From: a virus | Length of the DNA: 23,048 bases | Reading direction: 5' to 3' (one strand) | IMG/VR virus record: IMGVR_UViG_3300023180_000421 | Coordinates: 1 to 23,048 of that record | In this document: piece by piece, positions 6,000-23,048 of the stretch | Layout: each line of letters opens with the position of its first letter | Position numbering within the stretch: position 1 is the stretch's first letter | Translations under genes and position numbers: made by a program | The notes under the pieces: generated by a model | Database searches by the model: none | What the model saw: only the letters and a program-made list of their open reading frames with translations | Told to the model about the DNA's origin: nothing

Positions 6000-6000
6000 C

Positions 6001-10471: not shown

Positions 10472-10806
10472 CAAGAATCATGGATGTTTTTCTTCATTGA
10501 CTCCAGCACTTTAGTCATGTTGGAGAAGATGTAGTTCAGATCTACATCCTCAGGAAATCCCAAAGACCTTGCAGAGTCAAGGATCTTTTCCTTCATTGCT
10601 TTTGCATCTGGATCATCAGACAAACTCATTCTGGTGTAAAGAATTTTCTGCTTCTCCAATAGTTGAGCCATGACTTCCACATGCTCAACCTTTTGTTCCT
10701 TTGTCATGGTAGGAAACTTCCAGACACTATCATATACTTCCTCTTGAAGTCTGGTTATTTCCTCCATCTCTTGTCTGACTAATTCAGACCCAAAAAAATC
10801 ACTCAT
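10471..10806 (-). CDS. DUF1825-like protein in the gp59-gp32 interval
   Basis: A 111-aa helical protein starting MSDFFGSELVRQEMEEI. The pattern (SFF-SE-VQ-E start, EHVEVMAQLLEKQKILYTRMSLSDD in the middle) resembles DUF1825, a family of small cyanobacterial proteins, as recalled. It sits between gp59 and gp32 and some cyanophage annotations may call it gp33, but the gene at 11411 fits T4 gp33 better. The ATG at 10806 overlaps the gp59 stop as ATGA and is preferred over an upstream codon four positions earlier. Function unknown; a role alongside replication or late transcription is inferred from position. Confidence 0.6.
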   Translation of the reverse strand: MSDFFGSELVRQEMEEITRLQEEVYDSVWKFPTMTKEQKVEHVEVMAQLLEKQKILYTRMSLSDDPDAKAMKEKILDSARSLGFPEDVDLNYIFSNMTKVLESMKKNIHDS

Positions 10807-11414: not shown

Positions 11415-11674
11415 AAAGGAAGTTTAGCATGAGATGTTCTTTTGAGAAAATTCAAATCCATTGCTTCACATTTGATTTTCTCTTTCAATGGTTTAGAGAT
11501 CAGTTTGGGAACTGTCTCAATATCAATGTTGTTTTTCTCACAGAAGAATACAATGGCATCAATATACTTCATGTCATTGTTATCCTTCACAAGAGTTTCA
11601 ATCTCTTCTGAAAATTTTCTTGAGCAATAAAACTTACTCTCTAATAATTTGTTGATGTCATTTTCCTCTTTCAT
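11411..11674 (-). CDS. 33: Late transcription coactivator gp33
   Basis: An 87-aa protein. Its second half (MKYIDAIVFFCEKNNIDIETVPKLI, then LKEKIKCEAMDLNFL) aligns by eye with T4 gp33 (112 aa), including the YLEA...FLEEN and EKI..EA..ENLL patterns. gp33 bridges host RNA polymerase, the gp55 sigma factor and the gp45 clamp to activate late promoters such as the one at 6001. The ATG at 11674 is chosen because it follows AGGA and leaves a 17-base overlap with the nuclease gene. An upstream in-frame extension would lie wholly inside that gene. Position next to gp59 repeats T4 order. Confidence 0.7.
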   Translation of the reverse strand: MKEENDINKLLESKFYCSRKFSEEIETLVKDNNDMKYIDAIVFFCEKNNIDIETVPKLISKPLKEKIKCEAMDLNFLKRTSHAKLPL

Positions 11675-12332
11675 ATTCCTGAAGTTTGAACTCAACAAAT
11701 TCTCTAATATATTCGGAAAGTAATTTGATGTACTTTCTTTTGTCATACTCTTCATAGACAACACATTCTCCATCTTCACAAGACATTATGATTACAAATT
11801 TCTTGACAGCAATTCCTGTCAATTCATAGAGCATACATGCATATGCTGCACACTGTACAAAGTAGTGCTCAATCCACTTCTTTGGTTTTGGTTTCTTTGA
11901 AGTTTTGAAGTCAATGATGGCTAGTTCACCATCATACTCAGCAATACAATCTACAGTTCCAGCAACACCAAGTTTTAGACTATAGAGTGATGATTCCAGA
12001 GCATGAATATTATTTATGAGATCAAGTTGTGGCTTGGATTGCTTGAACAAAAATTCAGAGAGTGGTTGGACTTCTGGAAGTGACTCATTCTTCAGATAGT
12101 ATTCAACAAGAGTATGCATGTCAGTACCACGACTGGTAGCAGCCTTGGTGATCTTATTTGCTTCATCATTTCCAACTCTTGCACGCCACTGACGAAAGAT
12201 CTCTCTATTGTAGTGACTGATGACAGAGGTGATAGATACTAACTTCTCACCATTGGGAGTATCATAGTACCTAACACCATCAATAGTCTGCCTATCAAGT
12301 TTTGGAATTTCAATATCTACATGTTGAAACAT
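11658..12332 (-). CDS. RecB/Cas4-like PD-(D/E)XK exonuclease
   Basis: A 224-aa nuclease. Its motifs are His73 in SRGTDMH, Asp128 in GVAGTVDCIAEYDG, Asp141 and Lys143 in AIIDFKTSKK, and the QxxxY motif Gln160-Tyr164 (VQCAAYA). This is the full active-site set of RecB-like single-strand exonucleases such as Cas4 and MGME1. It likely trims DNA ends in recombination-dependent replication or host DNA breakdown. Its ATG overlaps the phoH stop (TAATG). No cysteines are arranged for a Cas4 iron-sulfur cluster, so it is closer to the MGME1/phage exonuclease branch. Substrate unknown. Confidence 0.8.
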   Translation of the reverse strand: MFQHVDIEIPKLDRQTIDGVRYYDTPNGEKLVSITSVISHYNREIFRQWRARVGNDEANKITKAATSRGTDMHTLVEYYLKNESLPEVQPLSEFLFKQSKPQLDLINNIHALESSLYSLKLGVAGTVDCIAEYDGELAIIDFKTSKKPKPKKWIEHYFVQCAAYACMLYELTGIAVKKFVIIMSCEDGECVVYEEYDKRKYIKLLSEYIREFVEFKLQEYERGK

Positions 12333-13093
12333 TACATACCCAGTTGCAATTTAGCCATGATGTACTCTTTAACAAGTCCACTTCTGCAGATATCCTCTGC
12401 ACCAAATTCTATTGTATCAAAAGATGGCATATTTTGCAAGATTCTCATGAAGTCCATGATACCAGTTCTTTCTGATGTCTTCACTAAGTCAGACTGAGTG
12501 GCATCACCACAGAACATAATCTTAGAATCCAAACCAATTCTGGTGATAATGGAATCCAGTTCATGGAAGTTCAAGTTCTGGAATTCATCAACAATGATGA
12601 TTGCATTATCAAAGGTAGTACCACGAATGAATGAGGTGCTCCAGAAACTAATTGTCCCTTGTGTTTTGAGATTTGCATACAGCATTTCAAATGCAGCATC
12701 ATCAGGCATCTCAAACATGTACTTCACCATATTCTTATATGGGATTTGGTACAGAGATGACTTATCCTCATGGTCCCCAGGAAGGAATCCAATCTCTCTG
12801 GTAGCTACAAGAGACCTGACAAGGTAGATCTTCTCATAGGGTTTCTTGGGATCCAATACATCCAGAAGAGCATTGTAGAGGGTAATAAAGGTCTTACCAG
12901 TTCCAGCACATCCATATGCTACCAGGTTTTTATCCTTCTTATACTCCTCAAAGAATTTTTCCTGGTTATCTGTGAGTGGTTCAATCTTCTTGATGTAATC
13001 AAGGTTGATTGGTTTCTTTCTCTTCATGGTTTTGTTGCTCATACCAAAGGGAACTGGATTGGTACCGATACCTGCTTTTGCTTTTCTTGGCAT
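12332..13093 (-). CDS. phoH: PhoH-like ATPase
   Basis: A 253-aa P-loop protein. Walker A is GCAGTGKT at residues 61-68 and Walker B is IIIVDEFQNL around 168-170. Family landmarks LVRSLVATREIGFLPGD (residues 91-107) and FCGDATQSDL follow. PhoH-like proteins are predicted RNA-linked ATPases found in most cyanophages, historically tied to phosphate starvation, though the phage role is unresolved. The gene lies between an 82-aa protein (6-base gap) and the exonuclease (1-base overlap). No Pho box was seen upstream. Confidence 0.9.
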   Translation of the reverse strand: MPRKAKAGIGTNPVPFGMSNKTMKRKKPINLDYIKKIEPLTDNQEKFFEEYKKDKNLVAYGCAGTGKTFITLYNALLDVLDPKKPYEKIYLVRSLVATREIGFLPGDHEDKSSLYQIPYKNMVKYMFEMPDDAAFEMLYANLKTQGTISFWSTSFIRGTTFDNAIIIVDEFQNLNFHELDSIITRIGLDSKIMFCGDATQSDLVKTSERTGIMDFMRILQNMPSFDTIEFGAEDICRSGLVKEYIMAKLQLGM

Positions 13094-13099
13094 ACTTAA

Positions 13100-13348
13100 T
13101 TAGAAAGGTTTTACTTTTGCACCAGGTGCTTTGGATGCTTTACGCAGCACATCATTCCATCCTGGATGGGACTTTTGCAGTTTGTCTGCCCACTCCCCAA
13201 CTTCACCTACCCCAGGAGCAGTAGATGGATCCGAATAGTCTCTTGTCCATTCAGGATTGTCTGCTTTCCACTGGTCCCAGTCATGAACACTCATCACAAC
13301 TTCTTTTTGTTCACCAGTTTCGATATTGACTACAGGATAAGTTGCCAT
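13100..13348 (-). CDS. Conserved 82-aa cyanophage protein (FmdB-like region, no zinc ligands)
   Basis: An 82-aa protein beginning MATYPVVNIETGE and containing WDQWKADNPEWTRDYSD, with the basic C-terminus APGAKVKPF. The overall pattern resembles small FmdB-like phage proteins, but the paired cysteines of the zinc ribbon are absent. It lies between thyX (24 bases upstream) and phoH (6 bases downstream), in the nucleotide and DNA metabolism run. A sequence close to the late promoter (TCTAAATA) lies at 13370-13377, over the thyX stop. Function unknown. Confidence 0.7.
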   Translation of the reverse strand: MATYPVVNIETGEQKEVVMSVHDWDQWKADNPEWTRDYSDPSTAPGVGEVGEWADKLQKSHPGWNDVLRKASKAPGAKVKPF

Positions 13349-13372
13349 ATTAAAAAATAATGTGTGTAATAT

Positions 13373-14011
13373 TTAGACCCACTCAAGGGCTTCTGCAATC
13401 ACAGGGAACTGCTCAGCAAAGATTGCTTTGCACATCTCTGCAATTTCCATGTGTTCTTTCTGAGTTCCATTGGCAGATCTCAGATCAATGTAGTGCATCC
13501 AACTGCGCAGAGAACCTGACATGTAAAGTCTGGTAGGAGTTGCCAGAGGGAGAACAAAGCGAGCACACTCTTTTGCCACACCATTATCAAGCAAGTGCTG
13601 ATACAGACTCATACCTTGAGCAAAGTAGGTTTCAATCTGCTTGTTAGACAATGCTACAAACTCAGGATCCAGGTCGTCAATAGAATTCTGGCGATTCTTG
13701 GTGTCTTGACGACGAAGTTCTGGGACTGGGATCGTCTCTGAGAGTAGGGAAGAATCAGCATAGCGTTGTGAAAATTCCTGGAATGTAAATGACCTATGAC
13801 GCAAAATCTGAGCTGCCAGACCTCTGGTAGTTTCAATCTCCAGAGTCATAAATGCCTGCTCAAAGATGCTCCAGTGCTTGTGTTTGATGCAATACTTCAG
13901 GAGACCAGCAAACTTATCATTGTCCTGGTTGTTGGGGTTAGAAACCCTTGCACAGTAAGCAATGTGTTGCTCTGCGTCTGGTGTGAAAGAAACTAATTTT
14001 ACTTGTTGCAT
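13373..14011 (-). CDS. thyX: FAD-dependent thymidylate synthase ThyX
   Basis: A 212-aa enzyme converting dUMP to dTMP with methylenetetrahydrofolate and FAD/NADPH. The ThyX signature RHRSFTFQEFSQRY is at residues 71-84, and the C-terminal substrate region has SLRSWMHYIDLRSA. Length is normal for phage ThyX. It supplies dTMP for genome synthesis. The ATG at 14011 is preceded by a strong GGAGGAG ribosome binding site, stronger than most in this window. It overlaps the end of the upstream small gene by 13 bases. Confidence 0.93.
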   Translation of the reverse strand: MQQVKLVSFTPDAEQHIAYCARVSNPNNQDNDKFAGLLKYCIKHKHWSIFEQAFMTLEIETTRGLAAQILRHRSFTFQEFSQRYADSSLLSETIPVPELRRQDTKNRQNSIDDLDPEFVALSNKQIETYFAQGMSLYQHLLDNGVAKECARFVLPLATPTRLYMSGSLRSWMHYIDLRSANGTQKEHMEIAEMCKAIFAEQFPVIAEALEWV

Positions 14012-14187
14012 GGTTCTCCTCCTTTGAATTGTTTACGACACTTCTTTACTTCTTTCAATTCTGTCTTGATCATCTTATATGCAGTTTCACTATCAATCTT
14101 ATCACCCATTTCCATGGCAATGATAACATCTACACGTGTACCAAAGTGCTGCAGTGCTCTCTCAAAACAATCCAACTCTTCATACAT
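13999..14187 (-). CDS. Hypothetical 62-aa protein upstream of thyX
   Basis: A 62-aa helical protein starting MYEELDCFERALQHFG and ending KQFKGGEPCNK. The ATG at 14187 overlaps the previous stop by 8 bases and is preferred over longer in-frame extensions that lie inside that gene. It carries three cysteines spread along the chain, with no metal-binding spacing. It overlaps thyX by 13 bases, so translation is probably coupled. No family recognised. Confidence 0.6.
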   Translation of the reverse strand: MYEELDCFERALQHFGTRVDVIIAMEMGDKIDSETAYKMIKTELKEVKKCRKQFKGGEPCNK

Positions 14188-14350
14188 GATCCTCTTCTCC
14201 ATAATAGACTTCATCATAGTCATCAATGTAAGGAACAACTTCCTCATACTGATAGTTGACCATTGGATTCTCATCAAGAAGTTCTTCTTTCAATCCTTCA
14301 AGAACCAACTCAAGTTTGCAGATTAGTTTCTGAACTTTTTCTTTATTCAT
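14180..14350 (-). CDS. Hypothetical 56-aa acidic protein
   Basis: A short gene of 56 residues. The N-terminus (MNKEKVQKLICKLELVLEGL) is an amphipathic helix and the C-terminal half is very acidic and tyrosine-rich (VVPYIDDYDEVYYGEEDHV). Its ATG at 14350 overlaps the upstream stop as ATGA, and its end overlaps the next start by 8 bases. The unbroken chain of overlaps is the main evidence that it is real. Acidic Tyr-rich peptides of this type sometimes mimic nucleic acid, but nothing here proves that. Confidence 0.55.
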   Translation of the reverse strand: MNKEKVQKLICKLELVLEGLKEELLDENPMVNYQYEEVVPYIDDYDEVYYGEEDHV

Positions 14351-14577
14351 TTGTTACCATTGATAAAATATGCATTGAAGTAAGCAATTATGCCATGAGA
14401 GATTTGGTTACCTTGAGAAACCCAATCATGCGCACACTCATAGATGTCTTGGGTTGAGTATGGTGCTTCATCAATCTGAGCACCACCATATTTTAGCATA
14501 AGAATGCTCAGACATTCCTGCCTCAGTTTCATTCTTTCTGGAGTGTACCTCCAATCAGAATTCTCCGTCATCATCAT
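14347..14577 (-). CDS. Hypothetical 76-aa protein
   Basis: A 76-aa protein (MMMTENSDWRYTPERMKLRQ...). It has a helical, cysteine-containing body: YECAHDWVSQGNQISHGIIAYFNAYFI. Three possible ATG starts lie at 14577, 14574 and 14571; an AAGGATG-type binding site precedes them. It overlaps the upstream gene by 23 bases and the downstream gene by an ATGA junction. No family was recognised. Its surroundings are other small accessory genes transcribed leftward. Confidence 0.6.
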   Translation of the reverse strand: MMMTENSDWRYTPERMKLRQECLSILMLKYGGAQIDEAPYSTQDIYECAHDWVSQGNQISHGIIAYFNAYFINGNK

Positions 14578-14713
14578 TCACATCCTTATAGGTCAAAGAT
14601 TGATGTGGTGCATTTTCCACATATTGTTCTGGATCAGAGTAGACTTCTGCTTCCAAGGACTCTACTAATAATTTTAGGTTTTTTACAATTAATTTTAGGC
14701 GTTCCTTTTCCAT
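14555..14713 (-). CDS. Hypothetical 52-aa coiled-coil protein
   Basis: A 52-aa protein starting MEKERLKLIVKNLKLLVESL, a heptad-like Leu/Val helix, then an acidic tail ending DVNDDDGEF. The ATG at 14713 is chosen because a terminator and a promoter lie just upstream; an in-frame extension would run through the terminator. The transcript leader would be only about 16 bases long and no ribosome binding site is visible. It is the first gene of the leftward run leading into thyX. Function unknown. Confidence 0.55.
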   Translation of the reverse strand: MEKERLKLIVKNLKLLVESLEAEVYSDPEQYVENAPHQSLTYKDVNDDDGEF

Positions 14714-14735
14714 TTGATAGAGTGTCTTTGTTTTT

Positions 14736-14764
14736 ATTTTACATAAAAAAAGAGGGGCAGTCAA
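14736..14764 (-). promoter_or_regulatory. Sigma70-type promoter fused to a terminator
   Basis: On the minus strand TTGACT (14759-14764) and TAAAAT (14736-14741) are separated by exactly 17 bases. The -35 hexamer is the loop of the terminator at 14745-14770. Transcription would start near 14729 and read the 52-aa gene and the genes leading to thyX. Confidence 0.6.
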
Positions 14765-14770
14765 CCCCTC
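14745..14770 (-). terminator. Intrinsic terminator after the 60-aa gene
   Basis: Minus-strand stem GAGGGG/CCCCTC with a seven-base loop TTGACTG, followed by seven T. It lies 9 bases after the gene at 14779-14961. Confidence 0.8.
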
Positions 14771-14778
14771 AACAAAGA

Positions 14779-14961
14779 CTATTCTAAAATCCTCCTACAT
14801 ATCCTTTTGCATGTGCCTTGATCTTCATCACATTCAATTAGACAATTATAGTAATCATTAATAATATCAGACTCATCAATGCTCCTATCTAAAGTTTGGT
14901 CTAATTTAGTTATACTTTGTTTCCACCCAGCTAACTGGTTATAAGAAATTAGATTGTGCAT
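14779..14961 (-). CDS. Conserved cyanophage small protein with C-terminal cysteines
   Basis: A 60-aa protein, MHNLISYNQLAGWKQSITKLDQ... with the C-terminal cysteine pattern CLIECDEDQGTCKRICRRILE. The pattern is recalled from other T4-like cyanophages. Four cysteines over 16 residues could form disulfides or bind metal. The ATG at 14961 is preferred over one 12 bases upstream because GGTGG lies at a suitable distance. It stands alone between two terminators. The 125 bases upstream (14962-15086) hold no gene, only a weak TAGAAT -10-like element and a GAGGTGAG purine run. Confidence 0.65.
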   Translation of the reverse strand: MHNLISYNQLAGWKQSITKLDQTLDRSIDESDIINDYYNCLIECDEDQGTCKRICRRILE

Positions 14962-15086
14962 GATAACCACCATTGATAATTAAGCACATGATATAGATCG
15001 AATTTAGTACACTTTTCTCACCTCTATAATTCTACACTATCTATTAGATTTTGGTTCAGAAAGATACAAAAATTTATGCCTACGTG

Positions 15087-15115
15087 TTTATACCTAAAAA
15101 AAAGAGGGAGATCAA
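15087..15115 (-). promoter_or_regulatory. Sigma70-type promoter fused to a terminator
   Basis: Minus-strand TTGATC (15110-15115) and TATAAA (15087-15092) are separated by 17 bases. The first four bases of the -35 are the TTGA tetraloop of the terminator at 15096-15123. It would drive the isolated 60-aa gene at 14779-14961 through a leader of about 120 bases. Confidence 0.5.
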
Positions 15116-15123
15116 TCCCCCTC
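15096..15123 (-). terminator. Intrinsic terminator overlapping the end of the 51-aa gene
   Basis: Minus-strand stem GAGGGGGA/TCTCCCTC (8 bp with one G-U) and tetraloop TTGA, followed by eight T. The TGA stop of the 51-aa gene is in the loop. Confidence 0.75.
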
Positions 15124-15267
15124 AAACTTGAATATTTTATCAAACCACTCATCCAAATGAATGAGATAGCATGACCAGTAATTGCAACCTCTGTATGTTA
15201 ATTGATAACATGCAGGAGGTCTATTGTCTTTATCCATGTCATCATAATGATAGACATAGTTATCCAT
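15112..15267 (-). CDS. Hypothetical 51-aa protein, aromatic and cysteine-containing
   Basis: A 51-aa protein, MDNYVYHYDDMDKDNRPPAC..., with YQLTYRGCNYWSCYLIHLDEW in the middle. It is rich in Tyr and Trp with three cysteines. The ATG at 15267 has a good AGAGGTG binding site. The LTYRG stretch recalls the opening of the DUF4278-like protein two genes upstream, which may be chance. Its stop codon lies inside the following terminator, so it is the last gene of this short operon. Function unknown. Confidence 0.6.
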   Translation of the reverse strand: MDNYVYHYDDMDKDNRPPACYQLTYRGCNYWSCYLIHLDEWFDKIFKFEGD

Positions 15268-15270
15268 TTT

Positions 15271-15393
15271 TCACCTCTTTGCTACACAGTGACCTGCCAT
15301 GCAAAGTTGTGCGTTCTTTAGTTTTTTCTCCTTAACTTCTTTTGCCTTAATGACAGAAAGCCAGTTAAGTTTATTGACCTGAGGTTGTGTCAT
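15271..15393 (-). CDS. Hypothetical 40-aa basic peptide
   Basis: A 40-aa, lysine-rich peptide: MTQPQVNKLNWLSVIKAKEVKEKK, ending AGHCVAKR. The ATG at 15393 overlaps the upstream stop as ATGA and is preceded by GAGGTGG, a good binding site. The end lies 3 bases before the next gene. The strong binding site and the overlap support it as a gene. Basic helical peptides of this size can bind nucleic acid or RNA polymerase, but no function can be assigned. Confidence 0.55.
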   Translation of the reverse strand: MTQPQVNKLNWLSVIKAKEVKEKKLKNAQLCMAGHCVAKR

Positions 15394-15521
15394 GATACCA
15401 CCTCAACCTTCTCAGTGTGCTTGATACCACGGTAGGTTTCTACCACAGTATGATGCTCAACCTTTTGTTGGTTAGGGCGATTGGATGTGTCATACTTGAC
15501 ACCACGATAAGTAACCTGCAT
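15390..15521 (-). CDS. DUF4278-like small protein
   Basis: A 43-aa protein, MQVTYRGVKYDTSNRPNQQ..., with a second YRGIKH near residue 31. This matches the recalled DUF4278 pattern (M-L-YRG--Y at the start, YRG near the end), a family of tiny cyanobacterial proteins also present in cyanophages. Function is unknown. The ATG at 15521 has a clear AGGAG binding site. It is joined to the next gene by an ATGA overlap. Host origin is plausible but unproven. Confidence 0.65.
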   Translation of the reverse strand: MQVTYRGVKYDTSNRPNQQKVEHHTVVETYRGIKHTEKVEVVS

Positions 15522-15587
15522 TGGTTTACTCCTGAAATACTAGGGTGAAATTAATCTCCCGTTCCTTCAGTCGTTTGCGGACTATGG

Positions 15588-15779
15588 TCAATAATCAAAA
15601 CATGATGGGTCAGTGCCCTCAATTGTTCTATTGATGAAGTCTTTCTTTTGATCAAAATTGAGCAACTCAGAGCGTGCAATACGCCCAATCATCCAGTTAG
15701 ATTGATCACAATTTAAATAATGTGCAGGATCAACTGGTTGTCTTGTAATCAAGTTGAAAAAGATAAGTGCTTCAACCAT
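15588..15779 (-). CDS. Hypothetical 63-aa protein, first gene after a strong promoter
   Basis: A 63-aa protein, MVEALIFFNLITRQPVDPAHYLN..., ending GTDPSCFDY. No family recognised. It is the first gene downstream of a near-consensus sigma70 promoter (15859-15888) and a long 5' hairpin (15811-15846), so it should be expressed early with host polymerase. The ATG at 15779 follows a weak CGGAGC element. A 66-base gap without a gene separates it from the DUF4278-like gene. Confidence 0.55.
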   Translation of the reverse strand: MVEALIFFNLITRQPVDPAHYLNCDQSNWMIGRIARSELLNFDQKKDFINRTIEGTDPSCFDY

Positions 15780-15810
15780 AGTCTGAACGCTCCGTTCCGC
15801 GACTTACTTG

Positions 15811-15846
15811 CGTCTCATTTGCTATTTGCGAATAGCAAATGGGATG
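15811..15846 (-). repeat. Long inverted repeat (16-bp stem) in a 5' leader
   Basis: An 11-bp perfect stem (CATTTGCTATT/AATAGCAAATG) with loop TGCG extends by five more pairs (two G-T) to 16 bp. No T-run follows on either strand, so it is not a normal terminator. It begins within a few bases of the expected transcription start of the promoter at 15859-15888 and would form a hairpin at the 5' end of that RNA. Confidence 0.8.
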
Positions 15847-15853
15847 AACGATA

Positions 15854-15868
15854 GGTCTATTATAGACC
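15854..15868. promoter_or_regulatory. 15-base palindrome over the -10 element (operator candidate)
   Basis: GGTCTATTATAGACC is a perfect palindrome around a central base and covers the TATAAT of the strong leftward promoter. Such placement is typical of repressor operators. No repressor is identified in the window. Confidence 0.5.
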
Positions 15869-15888
15869 CCATATATTATATATGTCAA
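15859..15888 (-). promoter_or_regulatory. Near-consensus sigma70 promoter
   Basis: Minus-strand TTGACA (15883-15888) and TATAAT (15859-15864), both perfect, with an 18-base spacer. The -35 overlaps the stop of the upstream gene. It is the strongest host-type promoter seen here, consistent with early expression of the small-gene block to its left. Confidence 0.8.
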
Positions 15889-16067
15889 CCTTGGAAATCT
15901 TTTGCTTCCTCAATCATCTTGGAGATAATTGTCTCTGTTCCATCAATGGATTTCACAGTGAACAGATTTGATTTCTGATACTTTTTGAGTTTCTTGTATT
16001 TCTTCAACAACCTTTCCAGATCTTCTGGTGGCAGATCAAACTCAACGTCATAAAAACCTTTACTCAT
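15885..16067 (-). CDS. Hypothetical 60-aa protein
   Basis: A 60-aa protein, MSKGFYDVEFDLPPEDLERLLKKYKKLKKYQKS..., with a central Lys/Leu helix and a short beta-like C-terminal half (FTVKSIDGTETIISKMI). The ATG at 16067 overlaps the upstream stop as ATGA. Its end overlaps the -35 element of the following promoter. It is the last gene of the leftward run from about 18553. No family recognised. Confidence 0.6.
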   Translation of the reverse strand: MSKGFYDVEFDLPPEDLERLLKKYKKLKKYQKSNLFTVKSIDGTETIISKMIEEAKDFQG

Positions 16068-16321
16068 TTCTTTTTCTTAGTCAAAGGATCATCCCAGACT
16101 TTTGGATTTGATCTACCTTCAGTCTGTTTAAAGTTGATAAGATTCTCTCTATACCTATCCCAGTAGTGATCAAAGATATCAACCTTTTTACTACAAAGAA
16201 CTATGTCCCATTGCTTAACTTCATCCTTGATATACTCTACCAAGTATGCAGTACAAGGTAGAGATCTATCATTTGCTAACTCAGGGTCACAGTTTTCACG
16301 AATAACTCTGATTTTACTCAA
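16064..16321 (-). CDS. Hypothetical 85-aa protein with TTG start
   Basis: An 85-aa protein, SKIRVIRENCDPELANDRSLPCTAYLVEY..., ending in a basic run DPLTKKKK. The first codon appears to be TTG at 16321, overlapping the upstream TGA stop (TTGA), with AGGT just before it; no ATG is available before residue 25. Mixed strand/helix make-up with WDIVLCSKKVDIFDHYWDRY in the middle suggests a small folded domain. It is joined to the next gene by an ATGA overlap. Function unknown. Confidence 0.6.
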   Translation of the reverse strand: MSKIRVIRENCDPELANDRSLPCTAYLVEYIKDEVKQWDIVLCSKKVDIFDHYWDRYRENLINFKQTEGRSNPKVWDDPLTKKKK

Positions 16322-16812
16322 GACCTATTTCCCCACTGGATATCAGGATATGCTTGTCTAACAACATCATGAGTGATCTTGTACTTAGACTGCAGCACTT
16401 TATCCTTCACCAGACAAAGAATATCTGCCTCTTGGGGGTGGAGACCTTCCAAGATTTGAATGAACATGCTCTCTCTACGTGTCTTAGAAAGGCTATCATT
16501 TCCACCCTTCACAAAATGGTAGAGATTTCTCCACTCCTTGCGAAGTGAAGTATGATCAGTTCCCACTGGAACCTCATTTTTATTGAAAGGAACTTGTCCC
16601 TCAGGAAGCAAGGAAATGATGCTCTCATCAAAATTCCAAATCAGAACAGCAGTCAATGCCTCAGTTCTGTGCTCCTTCAAAAGTTCTACTTTCTTTGCAT
16701 TTGTTCTTTGCTTGCCAACCAATTCCAGAATTTCAAAAATAAATGGATTTGGAGGAAGTTTAGTTACTGTCGTAGTTGCTGTCGTCGTCTTCTTCTTCGT
16801 AGTCGAAGCCAT
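16318..16812 (-). CDS. Conserved T4-like phage protein (DUF6433-like)
   Basis: A 164-aa protein. After a Thr/Lys-rich N-terminus (MASTTKKKTTTATTTV) comes a helical body with FIFEILELVGKQRTNAKKVELLKEH, FVKGGNDSLSKTRRESMFIQILEGLHPQEADIL and VVRQAYPDI. The pattern is that of a conserved family in T4-like phages, recalled as DUF6433, with no known function. The ATG at 16812 follows GAGG. The first 53 bases overlap the end of the preceding gene in another frame. It is followed by a TTGA junction. Confidence 0.7.
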   Translation of the reverse strand: MASTTKKKTTTATTTVTKLPPNPFIFEILELVGKQRTNAKKVELLKEHRTEALTAVLIWNFDESIISLLPEGQVPFNKNEVPVGTDHTSLRKEWRNLYHFVKGGNDSLSKTRRESMFIQILEGLHPQEADILCLVKDKVLQSKYKITHDVVRQAYPDIQWGNRS

Positions 16813-16996
16813 TTTCAAACCTCACTGCTAAAATTTCGTCAGGGATTACATTCCCACTTTCATCAAACATCTCAGGATGATATTTATTCATTTTGATGTC
16901 TTGTAGATATGTTTGAGCATTCCACCCAATTACTACCCCCACTAAGAGAAATAAAATAGAGATGAGTGAACTAAAGGTAAGAGTTGCTGCTAACAT
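16760..16996 (-). CDS. Small membrane protein with acidic tail
   Basis: A 78-aa protein with one N-terminal membrane segment (TFSSLISILFLLVGVVIGW) and a soluble part containing YHPEMFDESGNVIPDEILAVRFE, a pattern recalled from other T4-like cyanophages. It ends in a very acidic run (DYEEEDDDSNYDSN). The ATG at 16996 is preferred because it follows GGAGAAAG and the previous stop directly. The acidic tail is encoded in the overlap with the next gene. Function unknown; it probably sits in the host membrane with the tail in the cytoplasm. Confidence 0.7.
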   Translation of the reverse strand: MLAATLTFSSLISILFLLVGVVIGWNAQTYLQDIKMNKYHPEMFDESGNVIPDEILAVRFENGFDYEEEDDDSNYDSN

Positions 16997-16997
16997 T

Positions 16998-17186
16998 TTA
17001 CTTTCTCCAAGGTTTTTTTCTGACATCTAGATGAAGTTCTAGGTAGAAATGAAACTCTCTTCGAAAGAGAGAGACAAGTTTACCAAACTTCATTTGAAAA
17101 GTTTTAGGTTCCTCCTCTCTCCTTTTGTTTTTTCTCAATAATAACTCAACACCCCTATTAATTGCAAGGGCATTGTCACTTTCCAT
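16998..17186 (-). CDS. Hypothetical 62-aa basic protein
   Basis: A 62-aa protein, MESDNALAINRGVELLLRKNKRREEEP..., very rich in Lys and Arg and ending HLDVRKKPWRK. The ATG at 17186 lies one base after the upstream stop and is preferred over longer in-frame extensions inside that gene. Its stop is one base before the next start. No family recognised. Composition would suit nucleic-acid or membrane binding, but that is a guess. Confidence 0.55.
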   Translation of the reverse strand: MESDNALAINRGVELLLRKNKRREEEPKTFQMKFGKLVSLFRREFHFYLELHLDVRKKPWRK

Positions 17187-17187
17187 G

Positions 17188-17541
17188 TTATTTAGAGGAC
17201 TTCTTTTTTCTTCCTGGTTTTTTTTCTTGCTCATATTTCCAAGCATCCTCAAGAATACCGTACAAATAGTCCTTTATTTTTCTTGCCTCTGGTTTGCCAA
17301 GATGACCATAAGCTTCTCTCAACTGTTTATGTTCAGAGTCTGCACCACCCTCCAGGTATTCCTCAAGGTCATAGATGATGTTATTGATATTTTGAGCAGT
17401 TGGACTACTGATGAATCCTTCTACATCAAGCTTGGTTGCCTTTGAGTCTTTTAGGTAAGCATACATGTTCAACATAAACTTTCCTTCAAAGGCATAGTCT
17501 ATGGTGCTTTCAACAACATCACAAAGTTCTTTGTAGTACAT
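17188..17541 (-). CDS. Conserved hypothetical 117-aa protein
   Basis: A 117-aa, mainly helical and acidic protein, MYYKELCDVVESTIDYAFEGKF..., with DLEEYLEGGADSEHKQLREAYGHLGKPEARKI in the middle and a basic tail PGRKKKSSK. The ATG at 17541 overlaps the glutaredoxin stop as TAATG, so it is probably translated together with it. The regular helix pattern suggests a small helical bundle. Function not recognised. Confidence 0.65.
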   Translation of the reverse strand: MYYKELCDVVESTIDYAFEGKFMLNMYAYLKDSKATKLDVEGFISSPTAQNINNIIYDLEEYLEGGADSEHKQLREAYGHLGKPEARKIKDYLYGILEDAWKYEQEKKPGRKKKSSK

Positions 17542-17777
17542 TACACTAATTGATTCTCCTGCAAATATTTAACAGTTTCAACACATCCACCAATAGTTTC
17601 CTCTCCACAGATCACTTGAGGGAAAGTACTGTTCTCCCCAAACTCACTGTAGAATTGTTCTTTGGTAAAGTCCTTATTCAGTTTATAGATTACATGTTGA
17701 AGTTCTGCCATCTTGAGAACCTTTTCAACCTTTGTGCAATAAGGGCATCCATCCTTTGAGTAAACTGTGAATGTCAT
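17541..17777 (-). CDS. nrdC: Glutaredoxin
   Basis: A 78-aa glutaredoxin. The redox motif CPYC is at residues 11-14 (YSKDGCPYCTKVEKVL) and the glutathione-binding region includes STFPQVICGEETIGGC with the expected cis-Pro. In T4-like phages this class reduces ribonucleotide reductase, supplying dNTPs for replication; the symbol follows T4 nrdC. The length is standard. It begins just after a 52-aa gene, 7 bases downstream. No nrdA/nrdB genes lie in the window. Confidence 0.88.
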   Translation of the reverse strand: MTFTVYSKDGCPYCTKVEKVLKMAELQHVIYKLNKDFTKEQFYSEFGENSTFPQVICGEETIGGCVETVKYLQENQLV

Positions 17778-17784
17778 GGTAGTG

Positions 17785-17943
17785 TTACTGTTTGTTTTTT
17801 AGTTTGTAAAAATCCTTACATGATAAAACTTGGTGAGTGTATTCTGGATACTCTCTTTTCATGATGATAGGAACAGCCATCACACCTGGCCATTTCCCTT
17901 CAAAGAATACTACTTTGTTTTCCTCATCAATGATTTTTTGCAT
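17785..17943 (-). CDS. Hypothetical 52-aa protein
   Basis: A 52-aa protein, MQKIIDEENKVVFFEGKWPG..., continuing VMAVPIIMKREYPEYTHQVLSC and ending KLKNKQ. It looks like a small beta-rich domain. The ATG at 17943 lies 2 bases after the upstream stop, with GGAGG about 12 bases before it. The gene sits between two clear small genes and fills the gap exactly, which supports it. No family recognised. Confidence 0.6.
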   Translation of the reverse strand: MQKIIDEENKVVFFEGKWPGVMAVPIIMKREYPEYTHQVLSCKDFYKLKNKQ

Positions 17944-17945
17944 GA

Positions 17946-18155
17946 TTAGAGTTTGCCTCCAACTGTTCCCTCATGAACAACTTCAGGTTTTTCCCAACCC
18001 TCTTGGTTTCCCTTCAGATAAAAACGAGTTGCTGAAATACAAGCACTTTCAGTTAGAGCAGAGACCAGTCCATTACCATCTTTATCTTTACTATGCCAAA
18101 GAAATCTTGCTTTCTCCACATAGAAGTTATCATCAATTAGTTGCTTTGTACTCAT
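17946..18155 (-). CDS. Hypothetical 69-aa protein
   Basis: A 69-aa protein, MSTKQLIDDNFYVEKARFLWHSKDKDGNGLVS..., ending VHEGTVGGKL. The KDKDGNGLVS stretch resembles half of an EF-hand loop (D-x-D-x-N-G), although a complete calcium site with a following acidic position is not evident. It overlaps the previous gene by 23 bases. No family recognised. Its place in the leftward small-gene run suggests early host-takeover function, but this is inference from location only. Confidence 0.6.
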   Translation of the reverse strand: MSTKQLIDDNFYVEKARFLWHSKDKDGNGLVSALTESACISATRFYLKGNQEGWEKPEVVHEGTVGGKL

Positions 18156-18408
18156 GCTTTTGCTTCAATTCAGGGTTAGGTTGTGAAGGAACAACTGGGT
18201 TCCTATTCACTGCTTCAATAACAATGAATGCATCATTTTGATAACTTACTGTTCCAAAAGGTTTTGCCCACTTTGGATTAGCACCTTCAGTTTGATGAAT
18301 ACCACTATTGGCAACTCCACCAATCTTGACTCTGATATCATCATCAGCAGTCCATCCAAGTTCTTGGAGAGCAATGGAAAGTTTGCCCAACCAATCAGCA
18401 CTCTTCAT
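18133..18408 (-). CDS. Hypothetical 91-aa protein
   Basis: A 91-aa protein, MKSADWLGKLSIALQELGWTADDDIRVKIGG..., with GTVSYQNDAFIVIEAVNRNP in the second half, suggesting a small alpha/beta domain. The ATG at 18408 is chosen because it follows a strong GAGGAG site; an extension to 18441 would lie inside the neighbouring gene. It overlaps the upstream stop by 14 bases and the next gene by 23 bases. Function unknown. Confidence 0.6.
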   Translation of the reverse strand: MKSADWLGKLSIALQELGWTADDDIRVKIGGVANSGIHQTEGANPKWAKPFGTVSYQNDAFIVIEAVNRNPVVPSQPNPELKQKHEYKATN

Positions 18409-18553
18409 CACATTCTCCTCTGGTTCTAAGTTTCCAATCATTGGGTTGGTTCAACTGAGTTGTATTATAAGGTACTTTTGGTGGTCTGTAAAGATTTGGC
18501 CAAGTGTCTTGTATGATCTCAGCAAGTTTATGTGGTGTGTCAGAACCAATCAC
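18395..18553 (-). CDS. Hypothetical 52-aa protein with GTG start
   Basis: A 52-aa frame with a GTG start at 18553 that overlaps the upstream stop (GTGA). The peptide reads (M)IGSDTPHKLAEIIQDTWPNL, then YRPPKVPYNTTQLNQ, and ends RTRGECDEEC with two closely spaced cysteines. Coherent composition, exact fit in a chain of overlapping genes and the downstream 14-base overlap support it. No family recognised. Confidence 0.5.
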   Translation of the reverse strand: MIGSDTPHKLAEIIQDTWPNLYRPPKVPYNTTQLNQPNDWKLRTRGECDEEC

Positions 18554-18684
18554 GGATTATGATTTTTATTTTGTTTGATTTTTTGATAACCCCAGACTCC
18601 CAGGGCACCGATACCCAGACCGGCAAGACAACAAAGAAACATATGAATAAGGTGTTCGTAAAATGAGTGGTCAGCGTGATTCAT
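18550..18684 (-). CDS. 44-aa single-pass membrane protein, petE operon
   Basis: A 44-aa protein, MNHADHSFYEHLIHMFLCCLAG, then LGIGALGVWGYQKIKQNKNHNP. One membrane segment (residues 14-32) is Gly-rich, with two adjacent cysteines, a His-rich N-terminus and a basic C-terminus. The ATG overlaps the previous stop (ATGA). It is the third of three tiny membrane genes chained behind plastocyanin. The size is that of small photosystem or cytochrome b6f subunits, but no such subunit was recognised. Confidence 0.6.
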   Translation of the reverse strand: MNHADHSFYEHLIHMFLCCLAGLGIGALGVWGYQKIKQNKNHNP

Positions 18685-18773
18685 AGTTTAGGTTTTTTGA
18701 TTGGCCAAGTTGCTTCCATTGTTGCTGTCAACAAAAAAGCAAATCCAAAGATTAGTAAGTGCTCCATATTCAT
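18681..18773 (-). CDS. 30-aa membrane peptide, petE operon
   Basis: A 30-aa peptide, MNMEHLLIFGFAFLLTATMEATW, ending PIKKPKL. Residues 5-18 are a hydrophobic helix and the tail is basic. The ATG at 18773 overlaps the preceding stop as ATGA; a second ATG two codons later could also serve. Its own stop overlaps the next start. At this size, existence rests on the overlap chain and the membrane-like make-up. Function unknown. Confidence 0.5.
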   Translation of the reverse strand: MNMEHLLIFGFAFLLTATMEATWPIKKPKL

Positions 18774-18892
18774 CCAAAGTAAATTACACTAAGAGTGAAC
18801 ACAACAAAGATGATAACTGTAAACATCATCAATCCTACACCTGCCCAGGCAACCCAGGCAGGCATAGGTTCATAGTTGTGGTTATGAGACAT
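18770..18892 (-). CDS. 40-aa single-pass membrane protein following petE
   Basis: A 40-aa protein, MSHNHNYEPMPAWVAWAGVG followed by LMMFTVIIFVVFTLSVIYFG. The N-terminus has two histidines and the rest is one long membrane helix ending at the C-terminus. The ATG at 18892 overlaps the end of petE by 11 bases. Being translated directly after plastocyanin suggests a link to thylakoid electron transport, though it may be only a convenient position. No match to PetG/L/N, PsbM, PsbI or Hli patterns was seen. Confidence 0.6.
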   Translation of the reverse strand: MSHNHNYEPMPAWVAWAGVGLMMFTVIIFVVFTLSVIYFG

Positions 18893-19205
18893 GCACAGTT
18901 CCGATCATTCCAGCACCCTTGTGGGGAGCACACCAGTAAGTATAGTCCCCTGGCTCTGGAAATGCAATATCAAAACTCTCACCAGGTGCAAATGCAAGAC
19001 CTTCATGAGAGAGTTCTGGATGATCCTCCACAACCACATTGTGTGGAGGAAGCATGTTGTTGACAAAGTGAACTGACTCACCAGCAGCAATAGAAACCTC
19101 AGCAGGTTCAAATACTAAATTGCCATTGGAACCCATTTGAACATCAACAGCCCATGCAGGAAGAGCAAAGAATAGTGTAGCAAAAAGTGCAAGAACAAAC
19201 TTCAT
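18882..19205 (-). CDS. petE: Plastocyanin
   Basis: A 107-aa precursor. The signal peptide MKFVLALFATLFFALPAWA would be cleaved after Ala19, giving an 88-aa mature protein for the thylakoid lumen. The type 1 copper ligands are His55 (PPHNVVV), Cys92, His95 and Met100 (YWCAPHKGAGM). Plastocyanin carries electrons from cytochrome b6f to photosystem I, so the phage copy may keep electron flow going during infection. The loop CAPHKGAGM has Ala-Pro-His-Lys, where cyanobacterial host sequences as recalled usually have Glu-Pro-His-Arg. No clear ribosome binding site precedes the ATG. It starts 23 bases after the 66-aa gene. Confidence 0.93.
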   Translation of the reverse strand: MKFVLALFATLFFALPAWAVDVQMGSNGNLVFEPAEVSIAAGESVHFVNNMLPPHNVVVEDHPELSHEGLAFAPGESFDIAFPEPGDYTYWCAPHKGAGMIGTVHVS

Positions 19206-19228
19206 AAAAGTTTATGCAACTACTCTAT

Positions 19229-19429
19229 CTATATCTTCCTCATATCCCTATATCTGGGGTTTGTTTTGACTTCCTGATTTACCATCTCACCCAATTCGTC
19301 AGCACACTTACACCAAGCCTTCCTTGCAGTTTTTGATAGAGGATCATTCTTTTGTTTCAGTTCAAACCAGATGTGCCACAGTGCAGCACATTCATCTGAT
19401 TTCTTCTGTAGATGTGGTTCCCTGTACAC
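19229..19429 (-). CDS. Hypothetical 66-aa protein with GTG start
   Basis: A 66-aa protein, (M)YREPHLQKKSDECAALWHIWFEL..., continuing KARKAWCKCADELGEMVNQE and ending NPRYRDMRKI. It is helical, with three cysteines, two in a CKC pair. The first codon is GTG at 19429, inside the preceding gene (38-base overlap); no ATG is available upstream of residue 50. It precedes petE by 23 bases. Function unknown. Confidence 0.55.
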   Translation of the reverse strand: MYREPHLQKKSDECAALWHIWFELKQKNDPLSKTARKAWCKCADELGEMVNQEVKTNPRYRDMRKI

Positions 19430-19649
19430 TCATACCCATGGGGGTTGTGTGCCCTTGACTACCACTATTTACGTCATTCCAATGCCTTACTGCATTGGCA
19501 ACAATAGCCACATTGGTAACCAGGTAAGAAATAAAAATAAGGGTGCGTATGCCAGCAATAAGATCTGATTCTCTATCATTTTTTCCAGACTTTTCTCCAA
19601 GTGCTTTTGCCCATAGTCTCCAAATGTTCTTTTTCTTTTTCTTACCCAT
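19392..19649 (-). CDS. Conserved cyanophage membrane protein, 85 aa
   Basis: An 85-aa protein. A basic N-terminus (MGKKKKKNIWRLWAKALGEKSGKNDRESDLI) leads into a single membrane helix (TLIFISYLVTNVAIVANAV) and then a Thr/Ser-rich tail. The pattern is recalled from many T4-like cyanophages, where its function is unknown. The ATG at 19649 follows GGAG just after the psbD terminator. A promoter overlapping that terminator (19686-19714) probably drives it together with the 66-aa gene and petE. Confidence 0.7.
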   Translation of the reverse strand: MGKKKKKNIWRLWAKALGEKSGKNDRESDLIAGIRTLIFISYLVTNVAIVANAVRHWNDVNSGSQGHTTPMGMSVQGTTSTEEIR

Positions 19650-19717: not shown

Positions 19718-20782
19718 TTAGAGAGCATTACCTCTTGGCAATACTTCTTCTGGGAACACAAAGTTCTCATGTGGTTGATCAACAGGTGCCATCCAAGCAC
19801 GTAGACCTTCATTTAGAAGAATGTTCTTGGTGTAAAAGGTTTCAAATTCTGGATCTTCTGCTGCTCGAATTTCTTGCGATACGAAATCATACGCTCGTAG
19901 ATTGAGAGCAAGACCGATAATACCAATACTAGAAGTCCAAAGCCCCATGACAGGAACGAATAGCATAAAGAAATGAAGCCAACGCTTGTTGCTAAAAGCA
20001 ATTCCAAAAATTTGAGACCAAAATCGATTGGCAGTAACCATAGAATAGGTCTCTTCTTCTTGAGTTGGTTCAAAGGCTTTAAAAGTGTTTGCTTGATCAC
20101 CGTCTTCAAACAGAGTATTCTCTACTGTAGCACCATGAATGGCACAAAGTAAAGCCCCTCCAAGAATTCCTGCAACTCCCATCATATGAAATGGATTAAG
20201 CGTCCAGTTGTGGAAGCCCTGTAAGAACAGAAGAAATCTAAAGATTGCCGCAACGCCAAACGATGGCGCAAAGAACCAACTGGACTGTCCAAGAGGGTAC
20301 ATGAGGAATACACTAACAAATACGGCAATAGGACCTGAAAAAGCAATCGCATTGTACGGTCTAATTCCTACGAGTCTGGCAATCTCAAATTGCCTGAGCA
20401 TGAATCCTATAAGGCTGAAAGCTCCGTGGAGCGCCACAAAAGTCCAGAGTCCCCCAAGTTGGCACCAGCGGATGAAATCTCCCTGAGCTTCAGGACCCCA
20501 AAGGAGTAGAAGGCTATGTCCGAGAGCATCAGCAGGAGTAGATACAGCAGCAGTAAGAAAGTTACACCCCTCCAGATATGAACTCGCAATGCCATGGGTG
20601 TACCAACTGGTAACGAAGGTGGTTCCTGTAAGCCACCCGCCAAGAGCGAGATAAGCAGTCGGGAATAAAAGTAAGCCAGACCAACCGACAAAAACAAACC
20701 TATCACGCTTAAGCCAGTCATCGAGAACATCGAACCACCCCCTTTGTTGAATTGGTTGTGAAAGTGTTGAAGATACCATCAT
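19718..20782 (-). CDS. psbD: Photosystem II D2 protein
   Basis: A 354-aa, full-length D2. Nearly all family landmarks are present: [53 protein letters not shown], the redox tyrosine in [11 protein letters not shown], the chlorophyll and quinone/iron histidines in [22 protein letters not shown] and LHFFMLF, and the C-terminus [17 protein letters not shown]. With D1 it forms the photosystem II reaction centre; phage copies replace host protein during infection. The ATG at 20782 directly abuts GGAGG, so the second ATG at 20779 is equally possible. It has its own promoter and terminator. Confidence 0.97.
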
Positions 20783-20806
20783 CCTCCAAAATTACTTCTC
20801 CTATTT

Positions 20807-20835
20807 AGTTTACACTTCTTTACATAGAAAGTCAA
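20807..20835 (-). promoter_or_regulatory. Candidate psbD promoter
   Basis: Minus-strand TTGACT (20830-20835) and TAAACT (20807-20812) with a 17-base spacer. The adjoining ACTAAATA (20803-20810) also matches six of eight bases of the T4 late promoter, so early and late use are both possible. Confidence 0.45.
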
Positions 20836-20852
20836 TGGGTAAATGTGCTCAT

Positions 20853-20880
20853 AAAAAAACCTCTGAGAAAACTCAGAGGT
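20853..20880 (-). terminator. Terminator after the restriction-modification operon
   Basis: Minus-strand stem ACCTCTGAG/CTCAGAGGT (9 bp) with loop TTTT and a seven-T run. It separates the methyltransferase transcript from psbD. Confidence 0.85.
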
Positions 20881-20947
20881 CTTGAAGTATAGAAGAAGTG
20901 AATATTATTAGTGTAAACAATACAATGAGAATTATAATTGCCCACAT
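20873..20947 (-). CDS. 24-aa hydrophobic peptide behind the methyltransferase
   Basis: A tiny frame, MWAIIILIVLFTLIIFTSSI and then LQDL, almost wholly a membrane helix. Its TGA lies in the stem of the following terminator and its ATG follows a GAGAG purine run and an AGTGAT/ATCACT inverted repeat that overlaps the methyltransferase stop. Such peptides can be small photosystem subunits, membrane toxins or chance. The close fit between two regulatory elements favours a gene, but evidence is thin. Confidence 0.4.
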   Translation of the reverse strand: MWAIIILIVLFTLIIFTSSILQDL

Positions 20948-20957
20948 AAGTGATCTC

Positions 20958-21713
20958 TCAATCACTCAAGTATTTATCAAGAGGTGCAAATGTATCAATT
21001 CTCTCTTGTGCAACTTTACAATATGTTTCACTCATATCTATACCAATATAATTTCTCTCCAGTTTGTGAGCAACAAAAGTAGTTGTACCTGCACCATTGA
21101 ATGGATCCAACACAACATCACCTCTGTAAGAAAATAGTTTCAAGCAACGCTCTACTAATTCTTCAGGAAACATTGCTGGATGTCCATAGTCTTTCATCTT
21201 GGTTTCTGGTGCTATAGACCAGTGACCATTGACATACTTGATGAACTCATCTTTAGTAATGTCAATGTTTTCTTTATTTCCAGGGTGTTTGAGAGTATCT
21301 TTACTAAAAACTTCAATAAATTCAAAAGGATAAGACAAGTATGGACATGATGGTGACTTCCAACTACCCCATGCTGTCAGTTTTTTAAGATTATTCTTCA
21401 ACCAAATAATCTCTCCTCTCCAGATCATACCTTCACTGATCATTCTTTGAGTGATCTTGTGATGAGTAGGAAAGTATTGTTTGTAGTTGGGTTGGATGTT
21501 GATGATGAGTCTGCCACCAGACTTTAGCACACGCTTACACTCAACAAAGACTGAAAGAATTTTCTCAAGGTATTCATCAGCATCACCTCCATCATCATGA
21601 GTATCATACTCCATGCCATAGTTATATGGAGGTGATGTCAAAACAATATCAACAGACTCATCGTCCATTTCTTTCAGTGCAACGAGAGAATCTGAACAGA
21701 TGATTTCATTCAT
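20958..21713 (-). CDS. DNA N4-cytosine methyltransferase of a type II R-M system
   Basis: A 251-aa methyltransferase of the beta-class order. The catalytic motif TSPPY (residues 26-30, VLTSPPYNYGMEYD) comes first and the AdoMet-binding motif DPFNGAGTT (203-211) last, followed by RNYIGIDMSETYC. TSPPY is typical of enzymes making N4-methylcytosine. The middle part (WLKNNLKKLTAWGSWKSPSCPYL) resembles CTAG-type methyltransferases as recalled. It would protect phage DNA from the endonuclease encoded directly upstream; the two genes overlap by ATGA. Target CTAG is inferred from the partner's family. Confidence 0.85.
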   Translation of the reverse strand: MNEIICSDSLVALKEMDDESVDIVLTSPPYNYGMEYDTHDDGGDADEYLEKILSVFVECKRVLKSGGRLIINIQPNYKQYFPTHHKITQRMISEGMIWRGEIIWLKNNLKKLTAWGSWKSPSCPYLSYPFEFIEVFSKDTLKHPGNKENIDITKDEFIKYVNGHWSIAPETKMKDYGHPAMFPEELVERCLKLFSYRGDVVLDPFNGAGTTTFVAHKLERNYIGIDMSETYCKVAQERIDTFAPLDKYLSD

Positions 21714-22228
21714 ATAATTTTGAGTCCTTTCTTTCCATTGGAATAGTAGATGATGCGATAAGGAATAGTTTCCTTACCAGCATTGATAGTCTTCTTGTAA
21801 GTGTTTGGTTTGATTGACACTGGTTCATCACCAATGAAACCATCAATACCTTTTGCTTCTTCTTTTACGTTAGCAAGACGATAAGACTGACCATCAGCAC
21901 ATAATTTTAGCACGTCAAGTTGAATTTGCAAACCAGAATGAGTCTTGTTAATGATAAGATCTTTAGTCCATGCACGAACATCTTCTTTAGTGAGTTCATT
22001 GAGATTCTCTTTCATAGCAAGGACACATTCCCAGATCTTATTTGCTGCTGCGTCAATCTTATCTTCACCATCATAAAACCTTTCCCAGTCAGCAACCTCA
22101 TGACTATCACATTCGTCTCTAAACTTTTGAATCAGTTCACTCATCTGACCCACGTGTTGAGGTCTGGTTGCTTGCGAAAAACTGTTGGCAAGGTTGATAA
22201 CAGATCCAATGTACTTTAGAAGTACCAT
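21710..22228 (-). CDS. MjaI-family type II restriction endonuclease
   Basis: A 172-aa protein. The N-terminal YIGSVINLANSFSQATRPQHVGQMSELI is the hallmark of the MjaI family (RE_MjaI), whose founding enzyme cleaves CTAG. Further family patterns are AWTKDLIINKTHSGLQIQ and AKGIDGFIGDEPVSIKPNTYKK, where Asp and the E..SIK stretch could form the metal-binding catalytic site. Length is normal, with no breaks, so it may be active. It is transcribed before its methyltransferase, with a 4-base overlap, from a promoter just after psbA. Likely roles are cutting host or rival phage DNA. Activity and specificity are inferred. Confidence 0.8.
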   Translation of the reverse strand: MVLLKYIGSVINLANSFSQATRPQHVGQMSELIQKFRDECDSHEVADWERFYDGEDKIDAAANKIWECVLAMKENLNELTKEDVRAWTKDLIINKTHSGLQIQLDVLKLCADGQSYRLANVKEEAKGIDGFIGDEPVSIKPNTYKKTINAGKETIPYRIIYYSNGKKGLKII

Positions 22229-22249
22229 TCTTAATTGTTAACTGAAGTT

Positions 22250-22258
22250 ATTATAGCA
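22250..22258 (-). promoter_or_regulatory. Extended -10 promoter of the R-M operon
   Basis: Minus-strand TGCTATAAT, a perfect extended -10, lies directly after the psbA terminator T-run and 22 bases before the endonuclease start. The -35 position (22273-22278, CCCAGT) falls in the terminator loop and is not consensus. Confidence 0.6.
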
Positions 22259-22259
22259 C

Positions 22260-22282
22260 AAAAAAGGACCCCACTGGGGTCC
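22260..22282 (-). terminator. Terminator after psbA
   Basis: Minus-strand GGACCCC/GGGGTCC stem (7 bp) with loop AGT, followed by six T. It lies 30 bases after the psbA stop. Confidence 0.85.
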
Positions 22283-22311
22283 TTGTGACAGTTATTCAGT
22301 TGTTAGATATA

Positions 22312-23048
<737 letters not shown>

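Follow-up and report, generated by a model that had tools for sequence, protein, structure and literature searches.

The gene cassette between psbA and psbD in the analysed DNA is, at a probability of roughly 0.83, a functional CTAG-specific type II restriction-modification (RM) system of a T4-like cyanophage. The analysed DNA, hereafter the window, is a 23,048-base IMG/VR virus fragment, and its source is an ocean cyanobacterial virus, a T4-like cyanophage. The reading draws on computed evidence, namely the identity of the genes, the tracking of CTAG, purifying selection, purging of sites and conserved motifs, from which we infer cleavage and methylation themselves as well as the use of the system. 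All genes concerned are on the minus strand. In reading direction, psbA (22312–23046, its 5' end beyond the contig) forms the left flank and psbD (19718–20782) the right flank, and between them are an endonuclease gene of 172 aa (21710–22228; RE_MjaI, PF09568) and a DNA methyltransferase gene of 251 aa (20958–21713; PF01555). An intact MjaI-type endonuclease and methyltransferase had been placed here by a first-pass annotation, which was right in both coordinates and families, and also in letting the two genes overlap by four bases, an ATGA at 21710–21713 in which the endonuclease stop meets the methyltransferase start. The same overlap occurs in the phages S-RIM32, S-H9-2 and S-CAM3, and would likely couple the translation of the two proteins.

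The 172-aa protein matched the Pfam profile RE_MjaI over 162 residues (profile positions 3–164 of 164) with an E-value of 3e-44 and a score of 151 bits, the curated cut-off being 22.7, as the family assignment in the first-pass annotation had led one to expect, and it matched PHROG 14722, which is without assigned function, at 8e-99. Among 27–29 phage, bacterial and archaeal homologues, G127, I128, D129, I139 and K140 are invariant and S138 is conserved in at least 90%; E124 and the glycine that completes the stretch GID129G are likewise invariant. Judging by this conservation, the putative catalytic motif G127-I128-D129...S138-I139-K140 (PD-D...SxK-like; 21809–21850, minus strand) would form the active site. 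The AlphaFold model of the endonuclease is confident (mean pLDDT 92.5); a Foldseek search of the PDB with it returned nothing significant, with a restriction endonuclease at the top (3ndh, E 1.2), and a profile sequence search of the PDB gave no relevant matches. The window endonuclease has its Pfam family, with the full domain, in common with MjaI of Methanocaldococcus jannaschii, the sole PF09568 positive among 14 control genomes. MjaI cuts CTAG. It is a cellular archaeal enzyme, whereas the window enzyme is carried by a T4-like phage and, unlike MjaI, the endonuclease of one phage lineage comes without a methyltransferase.

For the 251-aa protein, the methyltransferase family proposed at first was recovered as N6_N4_Mtase (Pfam E 6e-46; 158 bits, cut-off 26.7). 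TSPPY (residues 26–30) precedes DPFNGAGTT (residues 203–211) with the target domain between them, and SPPY and most of DPFNGAGTT are invariant among 18 methyltransferase homologues. This motif order points to the beta class, typical of N4-cytosine enzymes, the best PDB match was a DNA cytosine-N4 methyltransferase (8s9m, 6e-26), and the window enzyme is probably an N4-cytosine methyltransferase.

Just 5' of the endonuclease ATG lies an extended -10-like element, TGCTATAAT (22250–22258, minus strand), which all four loci with the cassette at psbA–psbD, those of the window and of three relatives, have in identical form. A terminator hairpin, found by the terminator scan and conserved in relatives, is located between psbA and the endonuclease gene (22264–22284, minus strand). 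On the 3' side of the methyltransferase gene, there is a terminator-like hairpin, CCTCTGAG-TTTT-CTCAGAGG followed by T7 (20853–20879, minus strand; stems and loop at 20879–20860, T7 after them). The cassette had been credited with an extended -10 promoter and a terminator of its own; both can be read in the sequence, but TGCTATAAT was not among the hits of the two-hexamer promoter scan and the hairpin is missing from the list of the terminator scan. An Rfam scan of the window gave no matches at the gathering threshold. Between the methyltransferase gene and its hairpin, a very short hydrophobic reading frame, MWAIIILIVLFTLIIFTSSILQDL (window 20878–20950, minus strand), occupies the place of the thioredoxin-like gene of S-RIM32 and S-H9-2, and may be a chance occurrence.

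The cassette is already known, since the records of S-RIM32, S-H9-2 and S-CAM3 annotate a restriction enzyme and a methylase. As anticipated for a full type II pair in phages, it is rare: the endonuclease is encoded by 10 of 50,697 phage records, several of which are duplicates or variants of one phage, and the phages behind them are S-RIM32, S-H9-2, S-CAM3 and S-SM2. The named relatives carry the pair at 88–92% protein identity to the window, with the same gene order and four-base overlap, and a pair conserved to this degree is not a chance feature of the window. The survey for carriers at the same site identified S-RIM32 and S-H9-2, in which the pair also lies between psbA and psbD, though with a thioredoxin-like gene between methyltransferase and psbD that the window does not have; in S-CAM3, regA and hsp20 flank the pair, and the gene for DNA polymerase is close by. 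The 31 endonuclease loci in IMG/VR, some of them copies of isolates, are mostly pairs at psbA–psbD, at regA–hsp20 or beside the uvsW helicase gene, and one group is endonuclease-only. The psbA–psbD junction, earlier singled out as an insertion point, is used here as one out of three or more sites. The best named-phage records cover 13% of window positions 1–19600, while the psbA–cassette–psbD block matches S-RIM32 at 87%; given this distance of the rest of the window from named phages, the block must have moved as a module or recombined. In open-licence papers, we found neither a report of CTAG loss in cyanophages nor a functional study of the cassette.

Sites were counted by script, with a first-order Markov model supplying the expected tetramer counts. 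The non-carriers, ten complete cyanomyovirus genomes that gave no hit in a PF09568 search, contain 368–609 CTAG sites each, at observed/expected ratios of 0.63–1.11, and 80 control contigs, found via DNA polymerase and without an endonuclease match on the fetched stretch, gave a pooled count of 1893 of 2642 (0.72). The counts for carriers of the pair were 32 of 587 expected in S-RIM32 (0.05), 61 of 599 in S-H9-2 (0.10), 76 of 621 in S-CAM3 (0.12) and 6 of 67 in the window (0.09). CTAG is the one tetramer, out of 136 strand-collapsed ones, that separates the four complete carriers, which fall in four genera, from the ten non-carriers, with a 4.8-fold gap compared to 1.01 for the next best; the chance of such a perfect ranking of 4 among 14 is 1/1001 by our own arithmetic, relatedness ignored. 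The CTAG specificity stated in the first-pass annotation was in this way reached independently from genome composition, which supports a CTAG-specific RE_MjaI endonuclease. Avoidance of CTAG for other reasons is widespread among bacteria (PMC4687349), and general avoidance was rejected as the cause because the controls are near expectation or not strongly depleted. Among RM-carrying eukaryotic viruses, avoidance of the own site has been described in 8 of 17 cases (PMC4687349).

The pair contigs pooled to 496 of 3110 CTAG (0.16), mostly ranging from 0.05 to 0.73, with none in one 6.6-kb fragment. The mild depletion in G003 (0.63), G028 (0.73) and G025 (0.50) calls for recent acquisition or a weak enzyme, and G003 and G028, as pair contigs that keep about half or more of their CTAG, are possibly recent acquisitions. 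The sites may have been purged after acquisition, or their purging may have made acquisition tolerable, and either order requires an active endonuclease. N4-methylcytosine, previously put forward as the safeguard of the phage DNA, may contribute but is not the sole protection, as carriers have lost most of their CTAG and one lineage has lost the methyltransferase. Among the control contigs, a cyanophage-like one of 7 kb (L143) has 0 of 17 expected CTAG; an endonuclease might be encoded beyond its ends.

The argument from endonuclease-only phages draws on one complete genome, S-SM2, and on fragments. S-SM2 contains no CTAG in 190,789 bases, where 520 are expected (291 by a second-order expectation), and its nearest relative contains 381. 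When S-SM2 was searched for methyltransferases, no N6_N4 and no D12 enzyme was found, and in the absence of CTAG sites the genome needs no methyltransferase protection. The closest S-SM2 relative found with a 20-kb probe, Bellamy, has 213 CTAG in 125,706 aligned bases; since the S-SM2 genome is at zero, none of these can survive there, and the single one scored as kept has to stem from an alignment gap. By comparison, survival from Bellamy to S-SM2 is 30–47% for eight control palindromes. The commonest replacements of CTAG are single-base changes such as CTTG, TTAG, CTGG, CCAG and CAAG. A 379-aa gene beside the S-SM2 endonuclease was considered as a hidden methyltransferase and rejected, having no Pfam match and being absent from the other lone loci.

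Seven further IMG/VR records hold the endonuclease without a PF01555 match; these are fragments, and the methyltransferase may lie beyond them. The endonuclease-only contig G007 has none of 169 expected CTAG. The lone-endonuclease contig G005 (45.6 kb) has nine, all within 19,853–22,618, and was rejected as a counter-example because they are confined to one divergent tract, for which recombination or a chimeric assembly would account. Across 20,181–22,680, identity between G005 and G007 is 71–80% in 500-base windows, and eight of the nine sites are inside this tract, the first being located just ahead of it in a 91% window. Outside the tract, identity is 87–97% upstream and 84–98% downstream, with a single 84% window at 24,681 that has no CTAG. 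The lone-endonuclease fragments G013 and G014 contain two CTAG each, both of those in G013 within a 467-aa ORF in a stretch without an S-SM2 match. G013 (locus L091) also carries, at 687–1199 on the minus strand, a 170-aa ORF that by eye resembles phage Dam-type N6-adenine methyltransferases; it belongs to a block absent from S-SM2 and adjoins the CTAG-holding ORF.

Both genes are under purifying selection, lone endonucleases included. Pairwise dN/dS is about 0.05–0.15 for paired endonucleases, 0.07–0.11 for lone endonucleases in the S-SM2 group and 0.10 for G005/G007, and for the methyltransferases it is 0.02–0.16 in the clade of the window and 0.06–0.21 in the uvsW clade. Purifying selection implies that the endonuclease is used. 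The orthodox description of a type II system, with two linked genes that are both maintained, applies to the window and most of its relatives, with low dN/dS in both genes. Cleavage and protective methylation at one shared site would complete the description, and the genome statistics are in agreement with this. What is new here is genomic evidence suggesting that the pair works and that its cutter is really used.

In the mechanism that we propose, the endonuclease, encoded by the first gene, would cut unmodified CTAG during infection, and the methyltransferase, encoded by the second and probably acting on cytosine N4, would shield the phage genome imperfectly, so that CTAG sites would also be purged over evolution. 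The system would most likely serve to destroy the host chromosome, which is unmodified; instead of this, or besides it, it may exclude co-infecting phages. The reviewed cyanomyoviruses are without denA, ndd and denB, the T4 genes known for degrading host DNA; their absence leaves host-DNA degradation unexplained, and an undescribed degradation route has been suggested (PMC2984593). Chloroviruses likewise encode type II restriction enzymes and methyltransferases with short sites (CviAII and others); these RM systems are thought to attack host DNA, and the packaged endonucleases to be aimed at it (PMC7019647). The chlorovirus genes are reported to be always adjacent, whereas some cyanophages keep a lone endonuclease in a genome purged of its sites.

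That the pair is instead a weapon against co-infecting phages, shredding the 370–610 unprotected CTAG of non-carriers, seems possible rather than probable. Cyanophages without the pair are indeed rich in CTAG, and the GATC RM system of Marseilleviridae is likewise a virus-encoded pair, albeit in a eukaryotic giant virus and with a specificity other than CTAG; the study describing it reports that host DNA is not degraded and suggests that rival viruses are kept out (PMC7253447). The presumed target of the packaged chlorovirus enzymes and the gap left by denA, ndd and denB weigh against this view, and both roles can coexist. A lone endonuclease kept under selection in site-free genomes also makes it testable how cyanomyoviruses lacking these three genes degrade host DNA.

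A tree of the endonucleases puts the lone forms inside the clade of uvsW-linked cassettes: G005 and G007 branch among pairs (enclosing group 100/95), and the S-SM2 group adjoins them. The simplest reading is that the methyltransferase was lost, probably twice, although the branching there is partly unresolved; the endonuclease would have been kept, and self-protection would then consist in having zero CTAG. Type II RM pairs can behave as selfish modules, and the cassette could be such an addiction module, kept mainly since loss of the methyltransferase kills the carrier. The apparent history is the reverse of this prediction, with some lineages seeming to have dropped the methyltransferase while the endonuclease is kept under selection, and we regard an addiction module as unlikely. 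Solitary prokaryotic restriction endonucleases are likewise type II enzymes without a methyltransferase, and are expected to be highly toxic to the carrier (PMC3488263); in contrast to these, the phage genome displays tolerance through complete site loss, with the gene under purifying selection. A lone endonuclease under selection in site-free genomes could thereby serve to assay activity and specificity within the genome itself.

CTAG restriction by the host could also have driven the depletion and supplied the genes, in which case the phage endonuclease need not be active. Phages are known to react to host restriction by avoiding the sites (PMC6286503), and the prokaryotic homologues of the endonuclease that were found are both bacterial and archaeal. 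However, WH8102 yields both S-H9-2 (carrier, 0.10) and Sf-CH8 (non-carrier, 1.11), the depletion tracks gene presence over four genera and three insertion sites, and purifying selection implies use of the endonuclease, which makes this origin highly unlikely. It would be far-fetched to regard the endonuclease as inert or repurposed, for example as a homing-type selfish gene at psbA–psbD, and the depletion as coincidental: S-PM2 does have the homing endonuclease F-CphI at this junction and the cassette occupies several sites, but the protein is RE_MjaI and methyltransferase-linked in most loci, a Pfam scan of the cassette, which is found at three or more different sites, gave no homing-endonuclease domain, CTAG is uniquely tracked, and S-SM2 is at zero sites.

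Unannotated phage nucleases could be found by looking for a gene that goes with a word missing from the genome. For GTAC, among the 14 genomes, S-SM1 has 0 of 462 in 174 kb and S-WAM2 43 of 488 (0.09), and no other tetramer sets these two clearly apart. Common to both is a 199-aa 'hypothetical protein' of T4-like cluster 495 (S-SM1 41593–42192, L313:2094–2693; S-WAM2 46220–46825), which was found in none of the other 12 genomes, and the S-SM1 gene is directly ahead of uvsW, the neighbourhood of the S-SM2 lone endonuclease. In 40-kb pieces of further cluster 495 carriers, GTAC was at 0 of 123 in Syn1, 0.29 in P-RSM4 and 0.34 in P-HM1; the carriers S-SSM5 and ACG-2014f were at 0.58 and 0.53, respectively, the latter value being hardly below that of a hit-less ACG-2014f isolate (0.59). 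Four S-SM1-like contigs in IMG/VR are without GTAC, and the ratio is 0.27–0.65 in contigs with an S-SSM5-type methyltransferase nearby and 0.16 to 0.65 where none was seen. Cluster 495 is a lead, a candidate GTAC endonuclease that partly fits the rule seen for CTAG, less cleanly. There is also an extra D12 methyltransferase near the cluster 495 gene of S-WAM2 (44839–45705). Whether T4-like cyanophages destroy host DNA with site-purged lone endonucleases (MjaI-type for CTAG, cluster 495 for GTAC and perhaps an unknown CCGG enzyme), in place of the denA/denB and modified-cytosine scheme of T4 and with self-protection through lacking the cut word, is in our judgement an even bet.

CCGG is at 0 of 144–188 expected in S-RIM32, S-H9-2, Syn19, S-PM2, S-H9-1, S-WAM2, S-SM1 and S-RSM4 and occurs once in S-CAM3; it is present in S-SM2, Bellamy, Sf-CH8, ACG-2014j and SynMITS9220M01. 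Syn19, with none, and Bellamy, with 147, have the same host strain of isolation. No ORF family of at least 60 aa tracks CCGG cleanly, and the search for a gene behind its absence yielded no candidate. The RsaI-type pairs of Syn19 and ACG-2014j were rejected as a parallel case, as no tetramer separates their carriers and GTAC shows no special depletion there (0.58 and 0.50, respectively). These pairs, annotated as R.RsaI endonuclease and methylase (Syn19, L208:3486–4786; ACG-2014j, L209:2508–3786), represent another family of RM pairs carried by phages.
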